Part shown: positions 1 to 9,297 of the stretch, one piece after another
Layout of the letters: the number at the start of each line of letters is the position of its first letter
Position numbering within the stretch: position 1 is the stretch's first letter
From: Burkholderiales bacterium
GTDB lineage: Bacteria; Pseudomonadota; Gammaproteobacteria; Burkholderiales; JAEUMW01
DNA: 9,297 nucleotides
Direction: 5' to 3'
Assembly: GCA_016791285.1 (NCBI GenBank)
Contig: JAEUMX010000358.1
Span: 1-9,297, forward strand
Position numbers and translations under genes: made by a program
Notes under the pieces: model-generated
The model's input: the letters and a program-made list of their open reading frames with translations, nothing else
Database searches by the model: none
Told to the model about the DNA's origin: nothing

Positions 1-1
1 T

Positions 2-877
2 AAGCGGCGGATCGTCAATACACGCTTTGCCGCGATGGCCGCGCACTACCTGTTTGACCCCGACTTTTGCAATGTCGCCAGCGGTTGGGAGAAAGGCGTC
101 GTCGAGAAGAACGTGCAGGACAGCCGTCGGCGGATCTGGCAGGACGCCCTCAATCTGCGCTTTGGTAGTCTCGCCGAGTTGAATGCCTGGCTGGAATCGC
201 GTTGCCGAGCACTGTGGTCGGAACTGCCGTACCCCGAGGTCGAGCACCTGAGCATTGCCGACGCTCTGACCCTGGAGCGCGACGCCCTGATGCCGATGGT
301 GCCGGCCTTCGACGGCTATGTGGAGACTATCGCCACCGTCTCGAGTACCTGCCTCGTCAGCATCGAGCGCAACAAGTACTCGGTGCCATGTGCGCTTGCC
401 AACCAGAAGCTCAGCGTTCGCCTCTACCCTGAGCGTGTCGTGGTCCACGACGAGAACGGCGTGGTCGCCGTCCACGGACGCAGCTTCGAGCGCGGGGAAG
501 TGCGCTACGACTGGCAGCACTACATTGCGTTGGTCGAACGCAAACCCGGCGCCCTGAGAAACGGTGCGCCCTTCGACGGCATGCCGGAAGCACTCAAGCG
601 CTTGCGGGCGGCGCTGATCCGACGACCCGGGGGTGATCGCCTGATGGCCGAAATCCTCGCCTGCGTGCCCAAGCACGGCCTGGAAGCCGTCGTCGTGGCG
701 ACCGAACTGATCCTGGAATCCGGCAACACCAGTGCCGAGCACATCAAGAATGTGCTCTCCCGACTGAAGGAAGCGCCAGCGCCGCAGACCATAGAAACCG
801 CGCTCACGGTCGAGGAAGTCCCGCTCGCCGATGCCGGCCGCTACGACCGCCTGCACACGGAGGTGGACCGTGCGTGA
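2..877 (+). CDS. istA: IS21-family transposase IstA, C-terminal part (5' end outside window)
   Basis: This is the DDE-type transposase that cuts and joins the ends of the IS21 element. The frame is open to the left edge (from base 2, reading [16 protein letters not shown]), so the ATG at 35 is internal. About 291 codons are visible of a protein that is usually near 500 residues, so the N-terminal helix-turn-helix and the first catalytic Asp residues are missing from view. The segment [11 protein letters not shown] is the characteristic IstA motif; its second Glu, encoded at 104-106, is the likely catalytic E of the DDE triad. A C-terminal Mu-transposase-like domain follows, including NKYSVP near nt 370-387. 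The stop at 875-877 overlaps the istB start by 8 nt, so translation is probably coupled. The family assignment is secure. Confidence 0.93.
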
Positions 878-1691
878 GGTCGTCGCCGAACTCAAGTCGC
901 TGCGTCTGCACGGCATGGCGCAGCGTTACGAAGAACTGCTGGCCGAGGCTGGCTCCGGCATCCAGAGCGCCGGCTGGCTCATCGAAGGGCTGCTCGAGGC
1001 CGAGGTTACCGACCGGCATGTGCGCTCGATCCGTTACCAGATGGGGGCGGCGCGCTTCCCGGTACATCGGGATCTGGCCGGCTTCGACTTCGCCAAGTCC
1101 AGAGTCGACGAGAAGCTGATCAGGCAACTGGCAAGCGCCGAGTTTACCGATTCGGCCGCCAACGTCGTCTTCATCGGTGGCACCGGCACCGGGAAGACGC
1201 ATCTGGCGACCGCGCTCGGGGTCAAGGCGATCACCCAGCACGGCAAGCGCGTGCGTTTCTTCTCGACCGTCGATCTGGCCAACAGCCTGGAGCTGGAAAA
1301 GGCGGCTGGCAAACAGGGACGACTGGCCTACAGCCTGGTGCATGTCGATCTGGTCATGCTCGACGAACTGGGCTACCTGCCGTTCAGCCAAGCCGGCGGT
1401 GCCTTGCTGTTTCACCTGCTGTCCAAGCTCTACGAACGCACCAGCGTGATCATCACGACCAACCTGACTTTCGCCGAGTGGCCGGTCGTCTTCGGCGACG
1501 CGAAGATGACCACTGCGCTGCTCGATCGGCTGACGCATCACTGCCACATCGTGGAGACCGGCAACGAGTCGTACCGCTTCCGGCAGAGCAGCCAGAGCGC
1601 GAAGGCAAGAGTCACGGCGCGCGAGCAGAGCAAGCGCGGTAAGGCTGCTCAGACCGAGGTCTCGCCGGAGGTCGAGCCACAGCCCTTCTGA
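870..1691 (+). CDS. istB: IS21-family transposition helper ATPase IstB
   Basis: IstB is the AAA+ ATPase, related to DnaC, that remodels target DNA and stimulates the IstA transposase. I start it at GTG 870, which has GGAGG at 859-863, six bases upstream, and overlaps the end of istA by 8 nt as is usual for this pair. The ATG at 831 would add 13 residues that do not resemble the family. The product is 273 residues, slightly longer than usual because of a hydrophilic C-terminal tail. Visible motifs are Walker A GGTGTGKT (103-110), Walker [10 protein letters not shown] with Asp165-Glu166, a sensor-1-like IITTN (194-198), and the conserved [13 protein letters not shown] (217-229). No disruption is seen. 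Confidence 0.95.
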
Positions 1692-1697
1692 TCGAGC

Positions 1698-1752
1698 GTG
1701 CGCGGCGGAAACCGGCTTCGGGCTACGCCCATCGCCGCTTCCCGCCGCGCAC
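1698..1752 (+). repeat. 11-bp perfect inverted repeat just after istB
   Basis: GTGCGCGGCGG at 1698-1708 is the exact reverse complement of CCGCCGCGCAC at 1742-1752. GGCGGAA/TTCCCGCC could extend pairing inward with one bulge. It begins 6 nt after the istB stop, so RNA from istB could fold into a GC-rich hairpin. There is no T-run, so a terminator role is only possible; it could also belong to the IS end architecture. Confidence 0.6.
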
Positions 1753-1775
1753 CCGTATCGACTACACTTACCCAC

Positions 1776-1797
1776 AGCCGCTCAATGACAAGCGGCT
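1776..1797 (+). repeat. 7-bp stem-loop near the IS21 right end
   Basis: AGCCGCT (1776-1782) and AGCGGCT (1791-1797) are perfect inverted repeats around an 8-base loop. The stop codon that ends the truncated minus-strand regulator (TGA on the minus strand, 1784-1782) lies at the edge of this structure. It is inside the IS and probably part of its end region. Its function is unknown. Confidence 0.5.
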
Positions 1798-3902
1798 ATC
1801 CACCCCTGGTCAAAATTCAACGCGCACGGGTGGTCAAAATTCAACGCGCGCCGACATCGATCGGCGATTTCTGCGACGTGCATGGCCTTGGGAATGTCCT
1901 TGGCGACATAGTGCCGCCAGAACGTGAGCGCACGAAAATACGCCTCGTCCCCGTTCGGGAACTGTTCTAGCACGCCCGCCAGTTGTGCAAGTAAAGCGTC
2001 GGCCTGCCTCAAGTCGCCGGTGGACAATCTCACCGCGACACAATGCCCGAGAAAAATGGTGTCCCACAAGTGGACGCCCGACTGGCGGGCCGCTTCTAAC
2101 CCCGCGCTGGCGGAGGCAATGCAGGCATCGTGCAGCCCCGCGTGCAAAGCATAAGTGGCCTCGACGAGATAGCTTAGCGTCACTGTTTGCGGCGACGGGA
2201 ACGGGTCCTGGCGGTTCTGGCTGAGCGACTCCACGAGGTCCTGGGCAGTGGTCAGGTCTCCTCGCCAGATGTGGTATTGCGCGAGAAAGGCGTGTACTTG
2301 CGAGACGGGCGCCCCGGCTTGCGGATTCGCAAGTAGGCCGCGAGCCCGGTCTGCCCAGAGCGTCATCCTCGGATGCCCCATCCGGCGGAAACTCAGCACG
2401 GTGAAAACGCTTGCGGTGACACGCGCCTGGATCTCTTGTGGTGTCGAATCGACGATGTCGAACAGCTCCCGGTCGAATTCCTCGATCAAGGGGTCGAGTT
2501 CCGACAGGTTCTGGTAAAGCAGAAAAATCGCATCTGCGAGACCACACCAGGCGCACAGCCGCCCGACCAAGTCGCCGTGCGACGTACATACCGAATAGGC
2601 GCGCTCGAAGTGCCGCCGCGCCTCCACGGGATTGAAGAAGACAATACAGGTCCCAAGCCAGAGCGATAGCCACCCGTCCTCATGGACGATCTCCTGCGGG
2701 AGGCAGCGCAGCCACCGCTCCAGCGTCTTCAGCCGTCCCTGCTGAAGAAGCGCGTGAGCATGCTGGCGGAGGATCCGGATGATGGAGCCCCAGTCTTCCA
2801 TCCCCTTCCACAGCACGACGGCTTCATCGATCCGCCCTTCGGATTCCAGCAGCAGAGCTGCTTTCGTTCGGAGCTCTGCCAGTTCGCCCTTGCCAAGACG
2901 CCCGTTGGCCCGGTCGACCAGAAATTCCCGGAACAGGGGGTGCAACTGAAAAACCGGCCTCTCTTCCCCAATCCGTTGCGTGAAGGCGTTCCGCCGGGAC
3001 AACTCCTCGAGCACCTGTTCAGCGCTGTCCGATCCGGCGAGCGCACGAGCGGCCGGGGCACTGATATCCGGGAGAACGGCCAAGCGCATGAGAACGTCCT
3101 GCCGCTCTTCAGTTAGCCCTTCGAAGACCTCGGCGGCGAAGTAGTTGAAAATGGGACGACTCCCCGCGATGGCGAATCGGGAGGCCACCCTGTCGGCGCG
3201 CGCGCCCTCGAGGGCGAGGATAAGACCCGCCGCCCAGCCGTCCACACTTTCGATCAAGCGCGGGATCTCCTGCTGCCGCGCCGGCGGAAGGTCGTATCGG
3301 AGCGCGATCGCCTGTGCCTCCTCGACGGTCAGCCTCAAGCTGTTCCAGTCGATCAGCCGCAGTGCGCGGTTTGCCTGAAGGCGGGCAAGGCTGGACGGCA
3401 CCATGTCGCGGCTGACCAGGATCAAGTGGGTGCCGCCGGCGATCTCACCGCACGCCTCGCGCAGCACTACGTGTAGCAGCGGCGAATCGGGCGCCACCTC
3501 ATGCAGACCATCGAAGACGATGATCGCTGGCGCACCGAGCGCCTGATACAGCTCGCGAAAGAACCGGCGCGAGAACGCCGCCAAGCCGAGCGCATGCTCG
3601 GGCGTGAAGGTCGGCAGCCGACCGCACTTCCTTGGCGAAACGATGCGGGAGGCCTGGCTCAGAGAAGCGAAGAACGTCGCCAAGTCCTGATCGGCGGCGT
3701 CGACCCGGAACCATATAGAGGGAACGTGCTTTTGAGCGACATAGCTCGCGGCAAGCGTGGTTTTACCTGAACCGGCGGGAGCACTGACAAAGGCGACCGT
3801 GCCGCCGCCCATCTCTTCCAGCGCGGCGAATAGCCGCTGGCGAGGCAGGACGTGAGCCACGCTAGGAGCCGTGAGCTTCGGTGGCGCTTCGCGCCTTTTC
3901 AT
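1782..3902 (-). CDS. MalT-type (LAL/STAND) LuxR-family transcriptional regulator, C-terminus cut off by IS21
   Basis: The start is ATG at 3902-3900, preceded by AAGGGGAGAGA as a good ribosome site. The visible product is 706 residues. Residues 1-682 belong to the regulator and 683-706 are read from the inserted IS21 end. An N-terminal STAND NTPase is clear: Walker A APAGSGKTT (41-49), Walker B IIVFDG (127-132) and LVSRD as a sensor-like motif. A winged-helix-like segment and a long helical, TPR-like region follow, as in MalT. Family members usually run to about 850-900 residues and end in a LuxR-type helix-turn-helix. No such domain is present before the insertion point, so DNA binding has almost certainly been lost. 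The ORF upstream of the insertion has no frameshift, which suggests the insertion is fairly recent. The inducer and targets are unknown. Confidence 0.85.
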   Translation of the reverse strand: MKRREAPPKLTAPSVAHVLPRQRLFAALEEMGGGTVAFVSAPAGSGKTTLAASYVAQKHVPSIWFRVDAADQDLATFFASLSQASRIVSPRKCGRLPTFTPEHALGLAAFSRRFFRELYQALGAPAIIVFDGLHEVAPDSPLLHVVLREACGEIAGGTHLILVSRDMVPSSLARLQANRALRLIDWNSLRLTVEEAQAIALRYDLPPARQQEIPRLIESVDGWAAGLILALEGARADRVASRFAIAGSRPIFNYFAAEVFEGLTEERQDVLMRLAVLPDISAPAARALAGSDSAEQVLEELSRRNAFTQRIGEERPVFQLHPLFREFLVDRANGRLGKGELAELRTKAALLLESEGRIDEAVVLWKGMEDWGSIIRILRQHAHALLQQGRLKTLERWLRCLPQEIVHEDGWLSLWLGTCIVFFNPVEARRHFERAYSVCTSHGDLVGRLCAWCGLADAIFLLYQNLSELDPLIEEFDRELFDIVDSTPQEIQARVTASVFTVLSFRRMGHPRMTLWADRARGLLANPQAGAPVSQVHAFLAQYHIWRGDLTTAQDLVESLSQNRQDPFPSPQTVTLSYLVEATYALHAGLHDACIASASAGLEAARQSGVHLWDTIFLGHCVAVRLSTGDLRQADALLAQLAGVLEQFPNGDEAYFRALTFWRHYVAKDIPKAMHVAEIADRCRRALNFDHPCALNFDQGWIAACH
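1807..1849 (+). repeat. Two identical 19-bp direct repeats at the IS21 right end
   Basis: TGGTCAAAATTCAACGCGC occurs at 1807-1825 and again at 1831-1849, a 24-bp period. IS21-family elements carry multiple copies of an internal repeat at each end as transposase-binding sites, so these are most likely IstA-binding sites. Read on the minus strand they encode the two ALNFD stretches that end the interrupted regulator. Confidence 0.82.
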
Positions 3903-4059
3903 TCTCTCCCCTTTGCGGGCTGGACGCCCATCTTCGAAACTGCACGCCCGTCGACTCCCCCGGCAGCGGGCGAAACTCCTTCCTTCAGCGCGCCCATCAG
4001 GGCAAGGTCATATTCTACTCTCGGCGCATGCAGCGCGGCGATCTGCGGCCTCCAGAGGG
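3903..4059. other. Intergenic region upstream of the truncated regulator
   Basis: This stretch holds the 5' flank of the minus-strand regulator. On the minus strand a TAGAAT hexamer near 4012-4017 could be a -10 element, but no convincing -35 is paired with it, so I do not call a promoter. No gene is supported. The overlapping plus-strand frames here are GC-rich shadows without recognisable domains. Confidence 0.4.
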
Positions 4060-4290
4060 ACTTCGTCTACCACGGGACAGGTCCCCGCCCACACAGTCGA
4101 GCATCCGTACCCGATCTGTAATGCTGTCCCGCATATCGTAATCGCATGATCCGAAAGCGGGCGAAGTACCGATCGCCGATAGAAAGCTATGTACTGCGAA
4201 TATACCGGAGGCCGGCGGGCAGAGGGCGACCGGTCGTCGGCATCGTAGAAACGGATGCGCCGGCCTTGAAGGGAGTTTTTGCGAACGTGT
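4060..4290 (+). repeat. Dispersed repeat, copy A
   Basis: First of three copies in the window. It shares ACTTCGTC (4060-4067; copy B 5231-5238) and the 19-nt hairpin-forming CGGGACAGGTCCCCGCCCA (4073-4091; copy B 5255-5273). The best-conserved core is 4166-4231, identical to 5330-5395 of copy B at 64 of 66 positions. Similarity ends abruptly after AACGT near 4289, so the distal half seen in copies B and C is absent. It lies about 135 bp upstream of the secreted-protein gene at 4426. Confidence 0.85.
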
Positions 4291-4295
4291 CTTGA
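4146..4295 (+). pseudogene. Truncated copy of the 62-aa repeat-borne small protein
   Basis: The reading frame starts at ATG 4146 and encodes 49 residues beginning MIRKRAKYRSPIESYVLRIY. It matches the intact ORF at 5310-5498 closely for the first 38 residues and more loosely to NV (47-48). It then diverges and stops at TGA 4293-4295, so the C-terminal EELWEIL segment is lost at the end of the repeat. Differences from the intact copy over residues 1-38 are six synonymous and five mostly conservative codon changes, suggesting it was once a working gene. A short product could still be made; I treat it as a remnant. Confidence 0.6.
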
Positions 4296-4425
4296 CCGAA
4301 ATGAGAAAGGCGCTTTCAAGCTTGTCGGGCAAGCACTGAAGTGCCTGGGAGCGCGTGGCTGCATCGGCGGCAAGCAGCGGTTGTGTCAGAAGGAGATCGA
4401 CCTTGTCATTCGCCAGGGGGTGCCA

Positions 4426-5046
4426 ATGAAGAGGCTTTGCCGCGTAGCAGTTGGGCTAGCGGGACTTGGATGTCTCGCTAGTACTGGTCACGCCGAAACG
4501 ACAATCGATGACAACATCACGCCATCTGGGAGCATTCAGCAGGCGATTGGCGTCGAGGGGCGCGATGGCAGGTGGACGCAACCGAATGCTCCCATTCTGA
4601 TCGGGCTCGCGTCGATCCCTGGGGCGTCTGGGAGAGGTTTCGACCGAATGAAGATGGTGATCGATTTGGCGAAGGTCGCACCATCCGTCCCGGCGGGTTG
4701 CGGCATTAGGTTAGAGGCACCTTGGAAGATCCTGCGGACACGGTTCCCGATGCCTGACAAGGTCGACGCGGACCTGTTTGCGGCGCCGGAGTTCCGTAAC
4801 CTGAGCGACGGCACCGAGTATCAGGAGTTGTCCTGGCGGCAAGGCGGCTGCGGAGTGGCAGCGCGCTTCGCGCACCCGGACCGCGGCGACGCTAGGCAGT
4901 TATCCTCTGCATATCCGGGTCTTAATGTTGGGCCCAGCACAAGAGCCGTACAGGTCGTATGGCTAGGATTGGAAGGCTCGAGTGGAAGAAAGAACTACAC
5001 AGTTGCAGTGCCGTACGTGGCTGCGAAGTTCTCATCGCGGAAATGA
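4426..5046 (+). CDS. Secreted or periplasmic protein of unknown function
   Basis: I place the start at ATG 4426, preceded by AGGGGG (4415-4420) at 5 nt. The frame is open further upstream to 4279, but only this start gives a signal peptide: MKRLCR, then a hydrophobic stretch, then STGHA before ETT, implying cleavage after residue 23. The product is 206 residues. The mature part is soluble-looking, with no transmembrane segment and two cysteines (in AGCGIRLE and GGCGVAARF) that could form a disulfide. I recognise no family. It stands alone between repeat copy A and an IS3 relic, and its base composition is less GC-rich than the IS21 genes. That it is a real exported protein is likely; its role is unknown. 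Confidence 0.7.
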   Translation: MKRLCRVAVGLAGLGCLASTGHAETTIDDNITPSGSIQQAIGVEGRDGRWTQPNAPILIGLASIPGASGRGFDRMKMVIDLAKVAPSVPAGCGIRLEAPWKILRTRFPMPDKVDADLFAAPEFRNLSDGTEYQELSWRQGGCGVAARFAHPDRGDARQLSSAYPGLNVGPSTRAVQVVWLGLEGSSGRKNYTVAVPYVAAKFSSRK

Positions 5047-5111
5047 ATGGCCGACCGTGCACTGCGAACCCGGTCTGACTGCTCAGATTGTGCGAGTCAG
5101 TCGTAACTTGA

Positions 5112-5228
5112 AAAACGCAGAACGGTCCTGACAGGAGTTTCAATGGCCGCTTCCGCCACGAATGCCTGAGCCCGGAATGGTTCCGCAGCGGCCGCGAGGC
5201 GAAGCTCGTCATCCAAACCTGGCGTCGG
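5112..5228 (+). pseudogene. Relic of an IS3-family transposase (OrfB, C-terminal part)
   Basis: In the frame 5136-5228 the sequence encodes 31 residues starting SFNGRFRHECLSPEWFRS and ending with AKLVIQTWRR. This matches the conserved end of IS3-family OrfB integrase-like transposases, typically ESFNG-R-RDECLN--WF, then A---I--WR. The preceding codons 5112-5135 read KTQNGPDR, resembling the usual GKPTQNAYIE. The first S of this core follows R where the family normally has the catalytic Glu (ES to RS), so the active-site residue appears lost. A stop lies at 5109-5111, and similarity ends at 5228, just before repeat copy B. No start, OrfA or ends are visible. Confidence 0.8.
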
Positions 5229-5309
5229 TTACTTCGTCGACGGCGTTTACATCGCGGGACAGGTCCCCGCCCAGCACAGGCGAGCATTGGTTCGGCGTAG
5301 GGTGACCAG

Positions 5310-5498
5310 ATGACCCGCAAGCGGGCGAGGTACCGATCGCCGATAGAAAGCTATGTAGTGCGAATATACCGGAGGCCGGCGGGCAAAGGGCGACCAGTTG
5401 TTGGCATCGTAGAGGCGGATGCCCTTAACTCGAAGGGCGCTTTTACCAACGTAGAGGAACTCTGGGAAATCTTGGCGATGCCAAGAGCCCGACGGTAG
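5310..5498 (+). CDS. Small basic protein carried by the dispersed repeat (62 aa)
   Basis: The start is ATG 5310 with AGGGTGA (5299-5305) four bases upstream. The 62-residue product begins MTRKRARYRSPIESYVVRIY and ends in a basic RARR. A short beta-like stretch (SYVVRIYRR), a PVVGIVE strand and a C-terminal NVEELWEIL helix suggest a compact alpha/beta fold. I recall similar short YVVRIYRR...GxVE...ELWxIL proteins in proteobacterial genomes but know no assigned function. Coding is supported by comparison with copy A: over residues 1-38 about half of the base changes are synonymous and the rest mostly conservative. There is no signal peptide or membrane segment. It may be an independently expressed gene or a repeat passenger. 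Confidence 0.6.
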   Translation: MTRKRARYRSPIESYVVRIYRRPAGKGRPVVGIVEADALNSKGAFTNVEELWEILAMPRARR

Positions 5499-5542
5499 TG
5501 AAGGGGTAGAGCCGAGTCCTTGCGGGTTCTCCCGTTTAGATG

Positions 5543-5567
5543 ACGTCGGGGAAGTTAGCCCCGACGT
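5543..5567 (+). other. 9-bp perfect hairpin in repeat copy B
   Basis: ACGTCGGGG (5543-5551) pairs exactly with CCCCGACGT (5559-5567) around the loop AAGTTAG. It lies 45 nt after the small ORF, so it could terminate or stabilise that transcript. No T-run follows. Copy C keeps a weakened form (CGGGG 7267-7271 with CCCCG 7277-7281), so the structure is part of the repeat. Confidence 0.65.
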
Positions 5568-5680
5568 GAGCATCCCCCTTGGCAGCGACAGGGACGCGCT
5601 AGGGTGAAGCAATAACTTCAACAAGAAGGGAGGTAGGATGGGTGCGCCGTTCATGACCGTCGCCGACGTGGTCGTCGACG

Positions 5681-6000
5681 TGTCCGCTCGTTTCGCAGGT
5701 TTCGTCTTTCTCCTCAACGACTTCTCGAGCACGCCGGTCAGGGTGGGGTATGGCACCGGCAGCCGTTCCGCCGGCAGTACCCTACTACCGCAGTCGGATA
5801 GCGGGACGGTCGCCTTCGCGGCCGGCGAGATCGAGCAGGCAGTCCGGATGCCGCTTCCGCCCCAGAATGGTGAGCTCTGCCTCAACTGTTCGTTCCGACG
5901 GGGTCGGCGCTTGGATGATCAACCGAATTCAGCGAATGGCACGGGGCTCCGATCGGTTCATTGGTCCCGCGCCGCGGCAGAAAGCAAGAGGGAAAAAGCC
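5681..6000 (+). other. Leader region of the Tyr-rich/TraT unit, no recognised gene
   Basis: No domain or RNA gene is recognised. An open frame beginning at ATG 5638, with a strong GGGAGG site from repeat copy B, runs through this region in frame with the gene at 6001 and would add 121 residues. The added part has no family resemblance and would bury the signal peptide, so I prefer it as an untranslated leader. A small CCGAC/GTCGG hairpin (5895-5907) is present. No promoter hexamers stand out. Confidence 0.4.
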
Positions 6001-6354
6001 ATGGAACGTCCCGGATCGCAGCAATGCGCCCGCCTGTTGATAACCCTCACAGCTGCGGTGATGTGCTCAGGCCTCGCTGCCCAGGCGACCGCCGGAAGCA
6101 CAGAGGACCGCGAGCGCGAACTCATGCAGCAGCAGTTAAACCAGCAGGTGATGGCCGCGCCGTTCTCCGTCGAAGACCAGGCGCGGATCGACGCCTACGT
6201 CAAGAACGCGATGCAGAAGGACTTGAAGCCCGTGCCGAATCCCCCGCCTTACTGGCGCCGCGGCTACACCTGCGATTCGATCCGCAGCTACGGCTGGCGC
6301 GCCTACGGCGACTGCTATTACTACTACCGCTACTACGGCCGTTACTGGTACTGA
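6001..6354 (+). CDS. Small exported protein with Tyr-rich C-terminus
   Basis: The start chosen is ATG 6001, with GAGGG at 5988-5992 eight bases upstream, because it gives a signal peptide: a charged start, hydrophobic ARLLITLTAAVMCSGLAA, then QATA before GS, with likely cleavage after residue 31. The 117-residue product has a Gln-rich, helical middle (MQQQLNQQV), a Pro-rich linker (PVPNPPP), and a final 34 residues with 12 Tyr and 3 Trp. That tail includes a YYYYRYYGRYWY end and two cysteines (91 and 105) that could pair. The stop is 29 nt before the TraT-like gene, so the two are probably co-transcribed. Short Tyr-rich tails occur in several envelope proteins, but I do not recognise a named family. 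The last-residue aromatic suggests, without proving, outer-membrane association. Confidence 0.72.
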   Translation: MERPGSQQCARLLITLTAAVMCSGLAAQATAGSTEDRERELMQQQLNQQVMAAPFSVEDQARIDAYVKNAMQKDLKPVPNPPPYWRRGYTCDSIRSYGWRAYGDCYYYYRYYGRYWY

Positions 6355-6383
6355 CAACCACGATCACAACCCGGGGAGGGACC

Positions 6384-7130
6384 ATGAATCACCACGCCAG
6401 GCTTCTTGCCACGACCACGGCTGCCGTTGTGCTCGCCGGATGCGCCGCCACGCATACGATGATCGCAAAGAAGGACCTCGACGTGCAGGCACGCACCTCG
6501 ACCGCGATCTTCGTCGACCCGGTGGCTAAAGAACGTCGCACCATCTATCTCGACGTGAAAAGCGGCGTCATGGAGTTCGATCGGCGCCGCTTCAAGCAGT
6601 TCGTCGTCCAGCAGTTCACGGTGGCGAACGACAACGGCTATCGCATCGTCGACGATCCAGACCAGGCGCAGTTCCTGATGGTCGCCTACGTGCTGAACCT
6701 CGAGAAGGCGAGTCCCACCGCGGCGCAGATGGCGCTGAATCAAGGCTACACGGGCGGCGCCATCGCCGGGGGTGCAATCATCGGCGCTGCGGCGACGCAA
6801 ACGTGGAGCGGAGCCGGCGTCGGCGGCCTGGTGGGCGGTGCCGCGGAGCTCATCTCGGGTGCCGCGGTGAAGGACGTCACTTACATGCTGGTGACTGACG
6901 TGCAGATCCAGGAGAAAGCGCCCAAGGGCGTGCTGGTACGCAAGGACACGCGCATCGACACGAAGGTGTCGGACGCCGGGGCGGCGCGGCAGACGAGCTC
7001 GGAGGTCAGCATGCGCAAGGAGTACCGCACGCGCATCGTGACGACGGCGAACAAGGTCAACCTGGAACTGCCCGAAGCCGAGGAGCTCATGTTCAAGAAG
7101 ACCGCCTACTCGATGGCGGGCTTCTTCTAG
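6384..7130 (+). CDS. traT: TraT-like outer-membrane lipoprotein (complement-resistance family)
   Basis: TraT is an outer-membrane lipoprotein, best known from F-type plasmids, that mediates surface exclusion and serum resistance. The start is ATG 6384 with GGAGG at 6375-6379. The product is 248 residues, close to the F-plasmid protein's size. A lipoprotein signal ends in the lipobox LAGC with the lipidated Cys20. Family hallmarks follow in order: TIYLDVK, a YRIVDDPDQAQF segment, NQGYTGGA leading into a Gly-rich segment (121-161), VKDVTYMLVTDVQIQE (162-177), and YRTRIVTTANKVNLEL (214-229). The usual plasmid-transfer neighbours are absent. The partner here is the Tyr-rich exported protein upstream, so the role may be envelope protection rather than conjugation. 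The symbol denotes family resemblance. Confidence 0.88.
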   Translation: MNHHARLLATTTAAVVLAGCAATHTMIAKKDLDVQARTSTAIFVDPVAKERRTIYLDVKSGVMEFDRRRFKQFVVQQFTVANDNGYRIVDDPDQAQFLMVAYVLNLEKASPTAAQMALNQGYTGGAIAGGAIIGAAATQTWSGAGVGGLVGGAAELISGAAVKDVTYMLVTDVQIQEKAPKGVLVRKDTRIDTKVSDAGAARQTSSEVSMRKEYRTRIVTTANKVNLELPEAEELMFKKTAYSMAGFF

Positions 7131-7132
7131 AG

Positions 7133-7260
7133 CGATCGCCGCTAGAAAGCTATGTAGTGTGAATGTACGGAGGCCGCCGGGCGGAGGGAGGCCAGTTGTC
7201 GACATCGTGGAAACGGAGACGCTGGACGCTTGTGCCACGCCGAGGAACGCCCGTTTGAAT
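7133..7260 (+). pseudogene. Decayed copy of the repeat-borne small ORF
   Basis: Read in the frame of the intact ORF, the sequence gives RSPLESYVV and then a TGA where copy B has an Arg codon (CGA). A single base is then missing (TACGGAGG here against TACCGGAGG), shifting the frame. There is no start codon. The remaining similarity includes GGCCAGTTGTCG-CATCGTGGAA. No protein can be made. The 3' boundary is approximate. Confidence 0.65.
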
Positions 7261-7353
7261 GTCGACCGGGGGGTAGCCCCGACGTAAGCATGCCCCTTGG
7301 CAGGGACGAAGGGAGGCAGCCATTCATCACCGTCGCCGACGTGGTCGTCGACG
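7133..7353 (+). repeat. Dispersed repeat, copy C (decayed)
   Basis: It begins with CGATCGCC at 7133, two bases after the traT-like stop codon, and matches the core of copies A and B (TAGAAAGCTATGTAGTG). The distal parts 7274-7303 and 7323-7353 match copy B, with a deletion of some 40 bases between them that removes the purine-rich start region. It lies immediately upstream of the RTX gene. The first part of the repeat, with the GGGACAGGTCCC hairpin and the small-ORF start, is missing. Confidence 0.82.
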
Positions 7354-7419
7354 CGTGCAGGAGGACTGGGACTCGCGAGTATTGTCAACGGGATTACTTA
7401 ACAAGCAGGAGAAACGAAA

Positions 7420-8937
7420 ATGGCAATAATCCAAGGTACCGACGCAAGTGAAAGACTGGACGGGACCGCCGCCAGAGATAACATCGATGGACGTGGCGGC
7501 GCGGACATCATCTATGGGTTTGGCGATGTCGATAACCTTTACGGCGGCTTGGGCGACGATACGATTTACGGGGGGGACGGCAACGACACCCTTGACGCCT
7601 TCACCTTGTTGGGTAAGGGTGCCGACAGTATGATCGGTGGACTCGGTGATGATCGTTACTGCGTCGAAAACGTCGGCGATACCGTTATCGAGTTGGCTGG
7701 GCAAGGGATTGATGAGGTTTGGTCCACTATTTACTCGTACACCCTGCCAGCGAACGTCGAAAACCTGGAACTCCGTGCAAATGATTCAGCCATCGGCATT
7801 GGCAACGCGCTCGCTAACGAAATCATCGGTAACGACTTCGCCAATAGAATCTCAGGACTCGATGGCAATGATAGCTTGCTTGCGTACGGTGGGGACGACA
7901 CGCTGGACGGAGGAAACGGAGACGACACGCTGGACGGCGGGCGCGGCAACGATGCGCTCTACGGAGGGGGCGGCAACGACACCCTAGACGGCGGCGACAA
8001 CGGTGCCGACTCTATGACGGGGGGCACGGGCAATGACACCTACTTCGTAGACAACATAGGCGACAAGGTGATTGAGCTTGCCGCCCAGGGCACCGATACG
8101 GTGTCCTCGAAGATCACCTACACCTTGACGGCGAACGTCGAAAACCTCACGTTGACCACCAGTGCTCTGATCAACGGCACCGGCAACGGGTTGGCAAATG
8201 TCATTACCGGCAACGCCGCTAGGAACGTGCTTTCGGGACTGGACGGCGATGATACCCTCAACGGGGGAGTTGGCGCGGATTCGATGATCGGCGGAAAGGG
8301 AAACGACAAGTACTACGTCAATGAGCGGGGGGACATCGTCATCGAATCTGCTGGCGAAGGGACCGATGCGGTGATCGCGTCGACCTCCTGTGTATTGGCG
8401 CCAAACGTCGAGAACCTGACGCTGACGGGCAGTCTCGGATTCGACGGCACTGGCAACACGGTCGCAAATGTGATCACAGGTAACGATAAGTCGAACGTCC
8501 TCTCTGGGCTCGCCGGCAACGACACACTCAACGGCCTGGCTGGCAGCGACACGCTGCTGGGCGGGGCGGGCGCGGATGTACTCATCGGCGGACTCGGCGT
8601 GGATCGCTTCGACTTTGACGCGGTTAGCGATTCCACCTCCGCAGCGCGGGACGCAATCCGGGCGGGCGGGGGGGCGATCGCCTTCGAGGGGGCCGGGGTC
8701 AGCGGGGGAGATGTGATCGATCTCTCGGGCATCGACGCGAACACCAATGTGGGAGGCGATCAGGCGTTCGCATCTGGCTTCGGTATCGGTTTGGGCCAGA
8801 TCTCCCTCGTCAGCTCGGGGACGACAACCCTTGTGCGAGGAAACGTGGACGGCGATCCAGACTTCGAGTTCGTGCTCGCAATCGAGGATGGTTCAGTGCT
8901 CGCCTCAGCCTATAAGGCGGCAGACTTCATTCTTTAG
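7420..8937 (+). CDS. RTX calcium-binding repeat protein, probably type-I-secreted
   Basis: The start is ATG 7420 with AGGAG at 7407-7411. The 505-residue product is built almost entirely of RTX nonapeptide motifs (GGxGxDxLx), for example residues 34-59, 146-192, 273-294 and 363-394, which form Ca2+-binding beta-rolls. Between these lie three copies of a longer module: YxVxxxGDxVIE (80-91, 208-219, 298-309), then NVENLxL (112-118, 239-245, 329-335), then GxGN (126, 253, 343). The C-terminus (DVIDLSGIDAN-NVGGDQAF to NVDGDPDFEFVL) resembles the serralysin M10 C-terminal secretion region, but no HExxH protease domain is present. There is no N-terminal signal peptide, as expected for type I export. 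No ABC or membrane-fusion genes are in the window. Likely extracellular or surface-bound; the activity is unknown. Confidence 0.9.
   Translation: MAIIQGTDASERLDGTAARDNIDGRGGADIIYGFGDVDNLYGGLGDDTIYGGDGNDTLDAFTLLGKGADSMIGGLGDDRYCVENVGDTVIELAGQGIDEVWSTIYSYTLPANVENLELRANDSAIGIGNALANEIIGNDFANRISGLDGNDSLLAYGGDDTLDGGNGDDTLDGGRGNDALYGGGGNDTLDGGDNGADSMTGGTGNDTYFVDNIGDKVIELAAQGTDTVSSKITYTLTANVENLTLTTSALINGTGNGLANVITGNAARNVLSGLDGDDTLNGGVGADSMIGGKGNDKYYVNERGDIVIESAGEGTDAVIASTSCVLAPNVENLTLTGSLGFDGTGNTVANVITGNDKSNVLSGLAGNDTLNGLAGSDTLLGGAGADVLIGGLGVDRFDFDAVSDSTSAARDAIRAGGGAIAFEGAGVSGGDVIDLSGIDANTNVGGDQAFASGFGIGLGQISLVSSGTTTLVRGNVDGDPDFEFVLAIEDGSVLASAYKAADFIL
7894..7990 (+). repeat. 27-bp tandem units coding RTX nonapeptides
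   Basis: The 17-bp string GACGACACGCTGGACGG occurs exactly at 7894-7910 and 7921-7937. Two more diverged units follow, spaced by 27 bp or multiples of it. Each 27 bp encodes one GGxGxDxLx calcium-binding repeat. The near-identity at DNA level, beyond what protein conservation needs, suggests recent local duplication. This block accounts for the longer spacing between the first and second large modules of the protein. Confidence 0.75.
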
Positions 8938-9017
8938 AAGATATTTTCAAGGCAGCACCCACGAGAGGCTGTTAGTCTCTTATCACTGAAGAGTTGACGA
9001 TTTTGGCAAAGAATTTG

Positions 9018-9297
9018 TCATCGTGCGGCTGCCAGAGCGGGGAGGATTTGGAACTGGGTGAGCGAGCATGCTGCGGCGATGGCAGCGCGCCCCAGGCGCG
9101 TGAGGTAGTAGCGGTAGTAGCGGCGGACGCGCTTGATCAGTCCAAGAGTACGCAGCCGATGCAACTGTCGAGACAGTGCCGAATCGCTCAAGGGTACGAA
9201 GGGTTTCACGTCGGCGCGGCGCAGCCCGTGGATGTTGAATTCGGGTCGTTGCAGGGCGCGCAGCAGCGCCTGCTCGGAGCGCTCGAAGAAGTTCAGC
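9018..9297 (-). CDS. Winged-helix (MarR-like) DNA-binding protein, C-terminal part (5' end outside window)
   Basis: The frame is open from the right edge to the TGA at 9020-9018, giving 92 visible residues beginning LNFFERSEQALLRAL. A GTG at 9209 could start a shorter ORF, but the upstream residues continue the domain, so it is internal. LSDSALSRQLHRLRTLGLIKRV looks like a helix-turn-helix recognition region, and YRYYLTRLGRAAI like the following wing. This pattern is familiar from the ends of longer proteins annotated as MarR-like or helix-turn-helix regulators; I cannot name the family. The Y-Y-R-Y-Y-L wing is rich in Arg and Tyr. It is convergent with the RTX gene, 80 bp apart, with no clear terminator between them. 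Confidence 0.6.
   Translation of the reverse strand, partial: LNFFERSEQALLRALQRPEFNIHGLRRADVKPFVPLSDSALSRQLHRLRTLGLIKRVRRYYRYYLTRLGRAAIAAACSLTQFQILPALAAAR

Follow-up and report, generated by a model that had tools for sequence, protein, structure and literature searches.

The 9,297-nucleotide (nt) stretch analysed here (Burkholderiales bacterium, assembly GCA_016791285.1, contig JAEUMX010000358.1, positions 1 to 9,297, hereafter the window) carries three related stretches, named A, B, and C, which share part of a small open reading frame (ORF) and lie ahead of genes for exported-looking proteins. We propose, with a probability of about 0.7, that this cassette is part of a conserved regulon of the SARP type governing exported proteins and has partly decayed, a proposal drawn from sequence comparison in which the binding of the regulator is predicted. 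SARP activators have been described chiefly as switches for antibiotic production in actinomycetes. The small ORF belongs to a conserved protein family, its genes are associated with one regulator, an operator with a -10 box stands ahead of them, and genes for exported proteins follow. The regulator would bind this operator, and the small protein may act in trans, either as a partner or by feedback. Altogether, we would class the unit as a variant SARP regulon that includes an unnamed small-protein family, and it suggests that surface proteins can be switched on in a way not recognised so far.

The small ORF is intact in stretch B alone, and the protein family was followed from there:

5310-5498, plus strand: copy B small gene, intact, 62 aa (family search, alignments, AlphaFold model)

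Judging from its relatives, this small ORF is a real protein-coding gene under purifying selection. A first search listed 9 proteins, the window's own among them, and a profile search returned 2027 proteins at E ≤ 0.01, of which the best 120 were listed. The alignments show two conserved parts, YVVRIYR and LWEIL. Nonsynonymous divergence (pN) was below synonymous divergence (pS) in all 192 pairs of related copies (median pN/pS of 0.32), the pairs having been chosen for a pN below 0.30 and a length of 40 codons or more, a choice that favours low pN/pS; among the closest orthologues the ratio went down to 0.05. No family of Pfam or NCBIfam covers the small protein, a relative used as query found no match in plasmid or phage collections, and none of 46 pattern matches in viral contigs was confirmed. 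The AlphaFold model of the copy B protein consists of three strands and a helix (mean pLDDT of 73). A structure search with this model gave no significant relative, the weak matches including HicB-like and dsRBD-like ones, and the sequence had no relative in the PDB (best E of 0.11). A genome scan confirmed 17 loci from 286 pattern matches. The small gene was present in 13/13 genomes that had been chosen for having it, at up to 6 copies per genome, in 33/245 genomes of the phylum of G012 (apparently Nitrospirota), in 19/297 of the phylum of G008 (apparently Deltaproteobacteria/Syntrophaceae), and in 7/9 of the phylum of G001.

The association with a regulator was studied in the flanks of 83 small-gene copies, a set from which some weaker survey matches were omitted and which does not include the nearest protein relatives (P0002-P0031). 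The window contributes the following gene:

1782-3902, minus strand: truncated regulator, 706 aa as read, covering a MalT-like ATPase and some of the TPR region, its last codons being IS21 sequence

Of the 83 regions, 53 contain a gene matching this protein, the best segments being 28-39% identical. Thanks to a 1080-position model built from the ORFs of these same loci, a regulator of ~1080 aa was located near 67 of the 83 small genes. It lay upstream on the same strand in 64 cases, 51 of them within 1.5 kb; of the remaining three, one lay downstream, one was divergent like that of the window, and one was a weak overlapping match. Across the 245 genomes, 31 of the 33 small-gene carriers have the regulator, compared to 65/245 overall (p = 7e-19), and across the 297 genomes this holds for 18 of 19 carriers, compared to 53/297 (p = 4e-14), the carriers lacking it being G341, G343, and the marginal G069. 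The regulator occurs without the small gene in 34 (of 245) and 35 (of 297) genomes, the co-occurrence being one-directional. BTAD matches were found in 24/24 genomes searched, and 31 of the 56 matches over 50 bits have a small gene at most 4 kb downstream.

Full-length regulators combine N-terminal ATPase-type matches with a C-terminal BTAD domain (PF03704, over the cut-off in 5/5), located at about residues 912-1107. PF00486, the OmpR-like winged helix before BTAD, was matched in 1/5, below the cut-off. In NCBIfam, the C-terminal end resembled the SARP region of AfsR in 3/3 full-length regulators, below the curated cut-off, and the MalT model NF003420 reached E values of 1e-47 to 1e-62 in the same 3/3 and 7e-52 in the window, all below the cut-off. 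The window protein scored 653.7 bits against the 1080-position model over positions 16-699 only, the C-terminal SARP/BTAD part being absent and the match ending where the end of an IS21 element begins. By this match, it is of the same family as the ~1080-aa regulator and was cut short by IS21:

2-1856, plus strand: IS21-family element, with istA at 2-877 (cut by the window edge), istB at 831-1691, right end at ~1856, and left end outside the window

The element was recognised by the Pfam families Mu-transpos_C_2 and IstB_IS21 and by IstB relatives on plasmids, the two best-placed of which are 72-74% identical (uncultured bacterium and Thauera), the istB gene being mobile. Its right end was placed where the regulator match stops, and by reading. 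It carries two copies of GGTCAAAATTCAACGCGC inside the regulator gene, the C-terminal part of which has been removed.

The operator was derived from 81 regions upstream of small genes. Motif discovery at width 18 returned a doubled AATCTGTnACCnATCTGT with a log-likelihood of 433, compared to 64 for shuffled sequence, for which fewer starts were used. The operator is an 11-bp direct repeat, ATCTGTnACCn twice, just ahead of a -10 box, and a site over 14 bits stands on the coding strand in 56/81 regions. In these 56, the -10 box lies ten bases after the 24-mer, with T at 91% and A at 100% in its first two positions. After training on two phyla and testing on the third, 30/37, 17/36, and 7/8 regions passed a 1% shuffle threshold, compared to 1, 0, and 0 on the other strand; these hold-out tests are not fully independent, the motif seed having come from all 81 regions. 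The operator preceded 14/389 other ORFs and 0/44 ORFs over 900 aa, mostly regulators. Genes right after the small ORF had a site in their own 320 nt in 17/76 cases, some of which may be the site of the small gene. A T-rich tract stands directly ahead of the operator in many loci and could be an UP-like element or a terminator tail.

The exact operator pattern gave 48 sites in 24 genomes (three genomes had none), and the reversed control gave 0. Thirty of the 48 sites were examined: 11 lead into a small gene; 2 lie between a small gene and an exported gene; 2 stand behind a regulator where no small gene was found; 8 precede an exported gene, with neither small gene nor regulator within the 1.5 kb examined; 1 precedes a protein that is not exported-looking; and 6 lack a correctly placed -10 and appear to be chance matches. 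In the small phylum of G001 (L195, L196, L197, L198, L201, L210, and L211), the operator with its -10 immediately precedes genes for lipoproteins or other exported proteins, with no small gene.

The window has one strong site, which stands ahead of copy A:

4100-4123, plus strand: operator, direct repeats ATCCGT and ATCTGT 11 bp apart, 19.9 bits
4134-4139, plus strand: candidate -10 box TATCGT, with the conserved spacing to the operator, +4.4 bits
4146-4295, plus strand: copy A small ORF, 49 codons, without LWxIL

None of 500 Markov-simulated windows reached 19.9 bits, and the maximum of 200 plain shuffles was 14.7. The copy A start codon follows the 24-mer after 22 bases. A generic consensus sigma-70 scan found nothing at copy A, and in 3850-9000 its sites did not exceed chance. 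Copy B lacks both operator repeats, the alignment having a gap there. The start codon is close behind the -10 in the window (4134-4148) and in L148, L143, and L128, and the transcript may be leaderless.

The target was taken as the first plus-strand ORF at most 900 nt downstream of the small gene, which 18/83 loci did not have (6 for lack of room), and export was called with a home-made signal-peptide rule, the same for targets and controls. This next gene was exported-looking in 49/65 cases, compared to 122/472 other ORFs of the same regions (Fisher p = 1e-14). The link to exported-protein genes, which the initial annotation of the window had marked as inferred, thus holds outside the window. 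Under a looser rule, 57 downstream ORFs with a hydrophobic start fell into 36 similarity clusters; hence, the cargo is not one family. The exported targets of L118 and L169 (G013:C81 and G430:C36) have PEP-CTERM-like C-terminal tails. Within the window as well, each stretch stands ahead of an exported-looking gene as previously noted, namely, the secreted 206-aa protein behind A, the Tyr-rich and TraT-like pair behind B, and the RTX-repeat protein behind C:

4426-5046, plus strand: 206-aa exported protein following copy A, its signal peptide assigned by reading
6001-6354, plus strand: 117-aa exported protein rich in Tyr, its signal peptide likewise assigned by reading, frame open back to 5638
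6384-7130, plus strand: TraT-like lipoprotein, 248 aa, PF05818, 218.8 bits
7420-8937, plus strand: RTX-repeat protein, 505 aa, PF00353, 132.5 bits

The longer frame behind copy A (4279-5046) matched no Pfam family. At the window edge, a minus-strand ORF (9018-9297), helix-turn-helix-like by reading only, runs off the sequence.

The three stretches themselves, compared by self-blastn of the window, are unequal relatives and not three copies of one element, A and C being partial and decayed. Stretches A (4073-4290), B (5255-5452), and C (7133-7353) are related on the same strand, with similarity above chance: A and B are 91% identical over 113 nt (E of 3e-39), plus 94% over 33 nt; A and C 85% over 86 nt (E of 1e-18); and B and C 86% over 77 nt (E of 5e-17), 94% over 35 nt, and 81% over 59 nt. 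Common to all three are only ~77-86 nt within the small ORF (4170-4255, 5334-5410, and 7133-7217). The left part of B is common to A and its right part to C, with no common ends. The proposed same-orientation repeat in three copies is therefore real as a relationship, with the reservation that little of it is common to all. The parts of the proposed cassette (hairpin, small ORF, second hairpin, and distal motif) likewise exist, distributed as follows:

4074-4085 (copy A) and 5256-5267 (copy B), plus strand: palindrome GGGACAGGTCCC, limited to A and B, not kept in relatives
5543-5567, plus strand: hairpin 2 of copy B, 9-bp stem, no better than shuffles, with a degenerate counterpart within 7250-7307
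5646-5680, plus strand: distal motif of copy B, with a copy C partner at 7319-7353, 94% identical
7133-7353, plus strand: copy C, decayed, with a startless small-ORF fragment, a hairpin-2 remnant, and the distal motif

Hairpin 2 and the distal motif are limited to B and C within the window, and the distal motif is also present in the relative P0121. The small ORF of copy A ends after its 49 codons, short of the LWxIL end conserved in the family, and that of copy C is frameshifted besides having no start. An RNA element was considered and rejected: the window had no Rfam match at E ≤ 1, none of four hairpin stretches folded significantly better than shuffles (z of -1.39, -0.27, -0.06, and -0.46), and the palindrome is missing upstream of relatives, GGGACnnGTCCC not being found in 32,335 nt upstream of them. 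The system of the window looks worn down: the operator survives at A and the protein at B, C has neither of the two, and the regulator is without the DNA-binding end that IS21 removed.

Several observations weigh against the SARP-type regulon. On the promoter side, 25/81 upstream regions lack a site above 14 bits, and the stretch between box and -10 in the window fits the consensus poorly (-6.0 bits). The distance from the box to the -10 also exceeds that of published SARP promoters, being 9 bp from the second 11-mer or 13 bp from a heptamer, compared to 8 bp in the available text of PMC10936776. As for the regulator, 16/83 small genes have none in the stretch examined (six of the 16 with less than 1.5 kb of upstream sequence), 25/56 strong BTAD matches have no small gene within 4 kb downstream, and the regulator of the window is broken and divergent in orientation. 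Covariation between operator and DNA-binding domain, tested on 34 rows that include one mis-assigned regulator (G360) and one masked (G349), gave a raw Mantel p of 0.02, a partial p of 0.11, and an r of 0.06 among distant pairs; we do not claim it, because it is not significant beyond relatedness.

This last result would suit an operator read by another winged-helix regulator, such as an OmpR/PhoB-type response regulator, the MalT-SARP gene being a mere neighbour. Response regulators whose DNA-binding domains are related also use 11-bp direct repeats, and PhoP shares the afsS box with AfsR, according to the accessible part of PMC10972967. However, the tight co-occurrence and adjacency with the MalT-SARP gene in genomes of three phyla, and the SARP-type domain of the protein itself, make such a reader improbable. 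Slightly less improbable, and still unlikely, is that the small ORF is a cis-acting translated leader, or attenuator, of each exported operon instead of a trans-acting protein. It does share its strand with exported genes and immediately precede them, and it is sometimes repeated before each unit, as in the window and in G010:C50. A leader of this kind is at odds with the conserved sequence of the small protein and with the 8/30 operator sites that precede an exported gene with no small gene in the 1.5 kb examined. Among the possibilities raised by the initial annotation, the mobile regulatory leader came nearest, in that the promoter with activator-type direct repeats and the real small protein agree with its regulatory half; the mobile half was not supported. 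Neither the association with a regulator nor the operator was mentioned in that annotation.

Indeed, a non-autonomous mobile unit scattered before surface genes now appears very improbable. It was suggested by three related stretches before unrelated genes in one window, and several copies per genome, up to 6, occur elsewhere. Nevertheless, A, B, and C have no common ends or boundaries, the small protein has no match in plasmids or phages, its coding sequence is under purifying selection, and the association with one regulator, beside which it is conserved, is fixed. We give just as little credence to a single segmental duplication of the locus as the source of the three copies. The adjoining pieces shared by A and B and by B and C, in one orientation, would fit such an event, but the downstream genes are of different families with no mutual similarity by self-blastn, so that at most the small-gene unit itself was duplicated.

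Under the SARP-type regulon, which we prefer, the MalT-SARP protein would sense a signal through its ATPase/TPR part. Its C-terminal part, SARP-type DNA-binding domain and BTAD, would bind the two 11-bp direct repeats just upstream of the -10, and the bound activator could then recruit RNA polymerase, by analogy with AfsR at afsS. The first gene switched on would often encode the ~65-aa protein, with exported-protein genes following or having their own operator, and the small protein would act in trans, perhaps on the activator. A trans-acting role is the more likely one because some operators drive exported genes without a small gene and because the protein sequence is conserved.

More broadly, we consider it an even bet that this constitutes an undescribed control module in several non-actinomycete phyla, made of a MalT-type ATPase with a C-terminal SARP part, a ~65-aa trans-acting partner with ~2000 known unnamed members, and an ATCTGT direct-repeat promoter ahead of unrelated exported genes, as a cell-surface counterpart of AfsR-AfsS. 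In phyla other than the actinomycetes, genes for secreted proteins and lipoproteins are repeatedly preceded by the small gene, the operator, and a SARP-type activator of reversed architecture. If true, the module would let regulated genes for exported proteins be predicted from a promoter code in lineages that have had little study, would give a large protein family without a name its likely class of function, and would add a second system for asking what AfsS-like small proteins do. Titles and abstract beginnings of the literature on SARP, BTAD, or MalT in these phyla, with subscription journals mostly outside coverage, held no description of such a module, and three motif strings had no match in the literature.

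Among known systems, GSU1771 of Geobacter sulfurreducens is likewise a regulator of the SARP type from outside the actinomycetes, with effects on genes for cytochromes and lipoproteins; unlike the present regulator, it has an N-terminal receiver domain, and the accessible portion of the source mentions no small gene or direct-repeat operator (PMC10599522). The SARP-LAL activator PimR resembles the present regulator in joining a SARP part to a LuxR-family ATP-binding half and in its heptamers with 4-nt spacers and an 11-bp period, but its domain order is reversed, its operator sequence is another one, and its unique target is the regulator gene pimM (PMC5930380, as far as its available text goes). 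The large SARP and SARP-LAL class as a whole has an N-terminal SARP part followed by ATPase and TPR, whereas BTAD is C-terminal here. MalT and the LAL activators are similar in the N-terminal ATPase region (NF003420, below cut-off) and differ in that a C-terminal BTAD takes here the place of the LuxR-type helix-turn-helix.

AfsS is small in size, and we call the present small protein AfsS-like by its gene position. According to the accessible parts of PMC10936776 and PMC10972967, afsS is the gene adjacent to afsR, and the AfsR box at afsS overlaps the -35 element, where AfsR contacts RNA polymerase; binding to direct repeats with an 11-bp period is a trait of SARP activators (PMC10936776 and PMC5930380, in part). 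The AfsR-AfsS system of Streptomyces thus shares with the present one a large ATPase/TPR/SARP activator, a small adjacent gene as target, and two 11-bp direct repeats, over the -35 region in the afsS promoter (PMC10936776 and PMC10972967, same parts). The small gene is likewise downstream of the regulator here (64/83 on the same strand, 51 within 1.5 kb). In contrast, the SARP part is N-terminal in AfsR and C-terminal here, the ATPase here is MalT-like, the repeats stand further from the -10, and the targets are exported proteins instead of antibiotic pathways.

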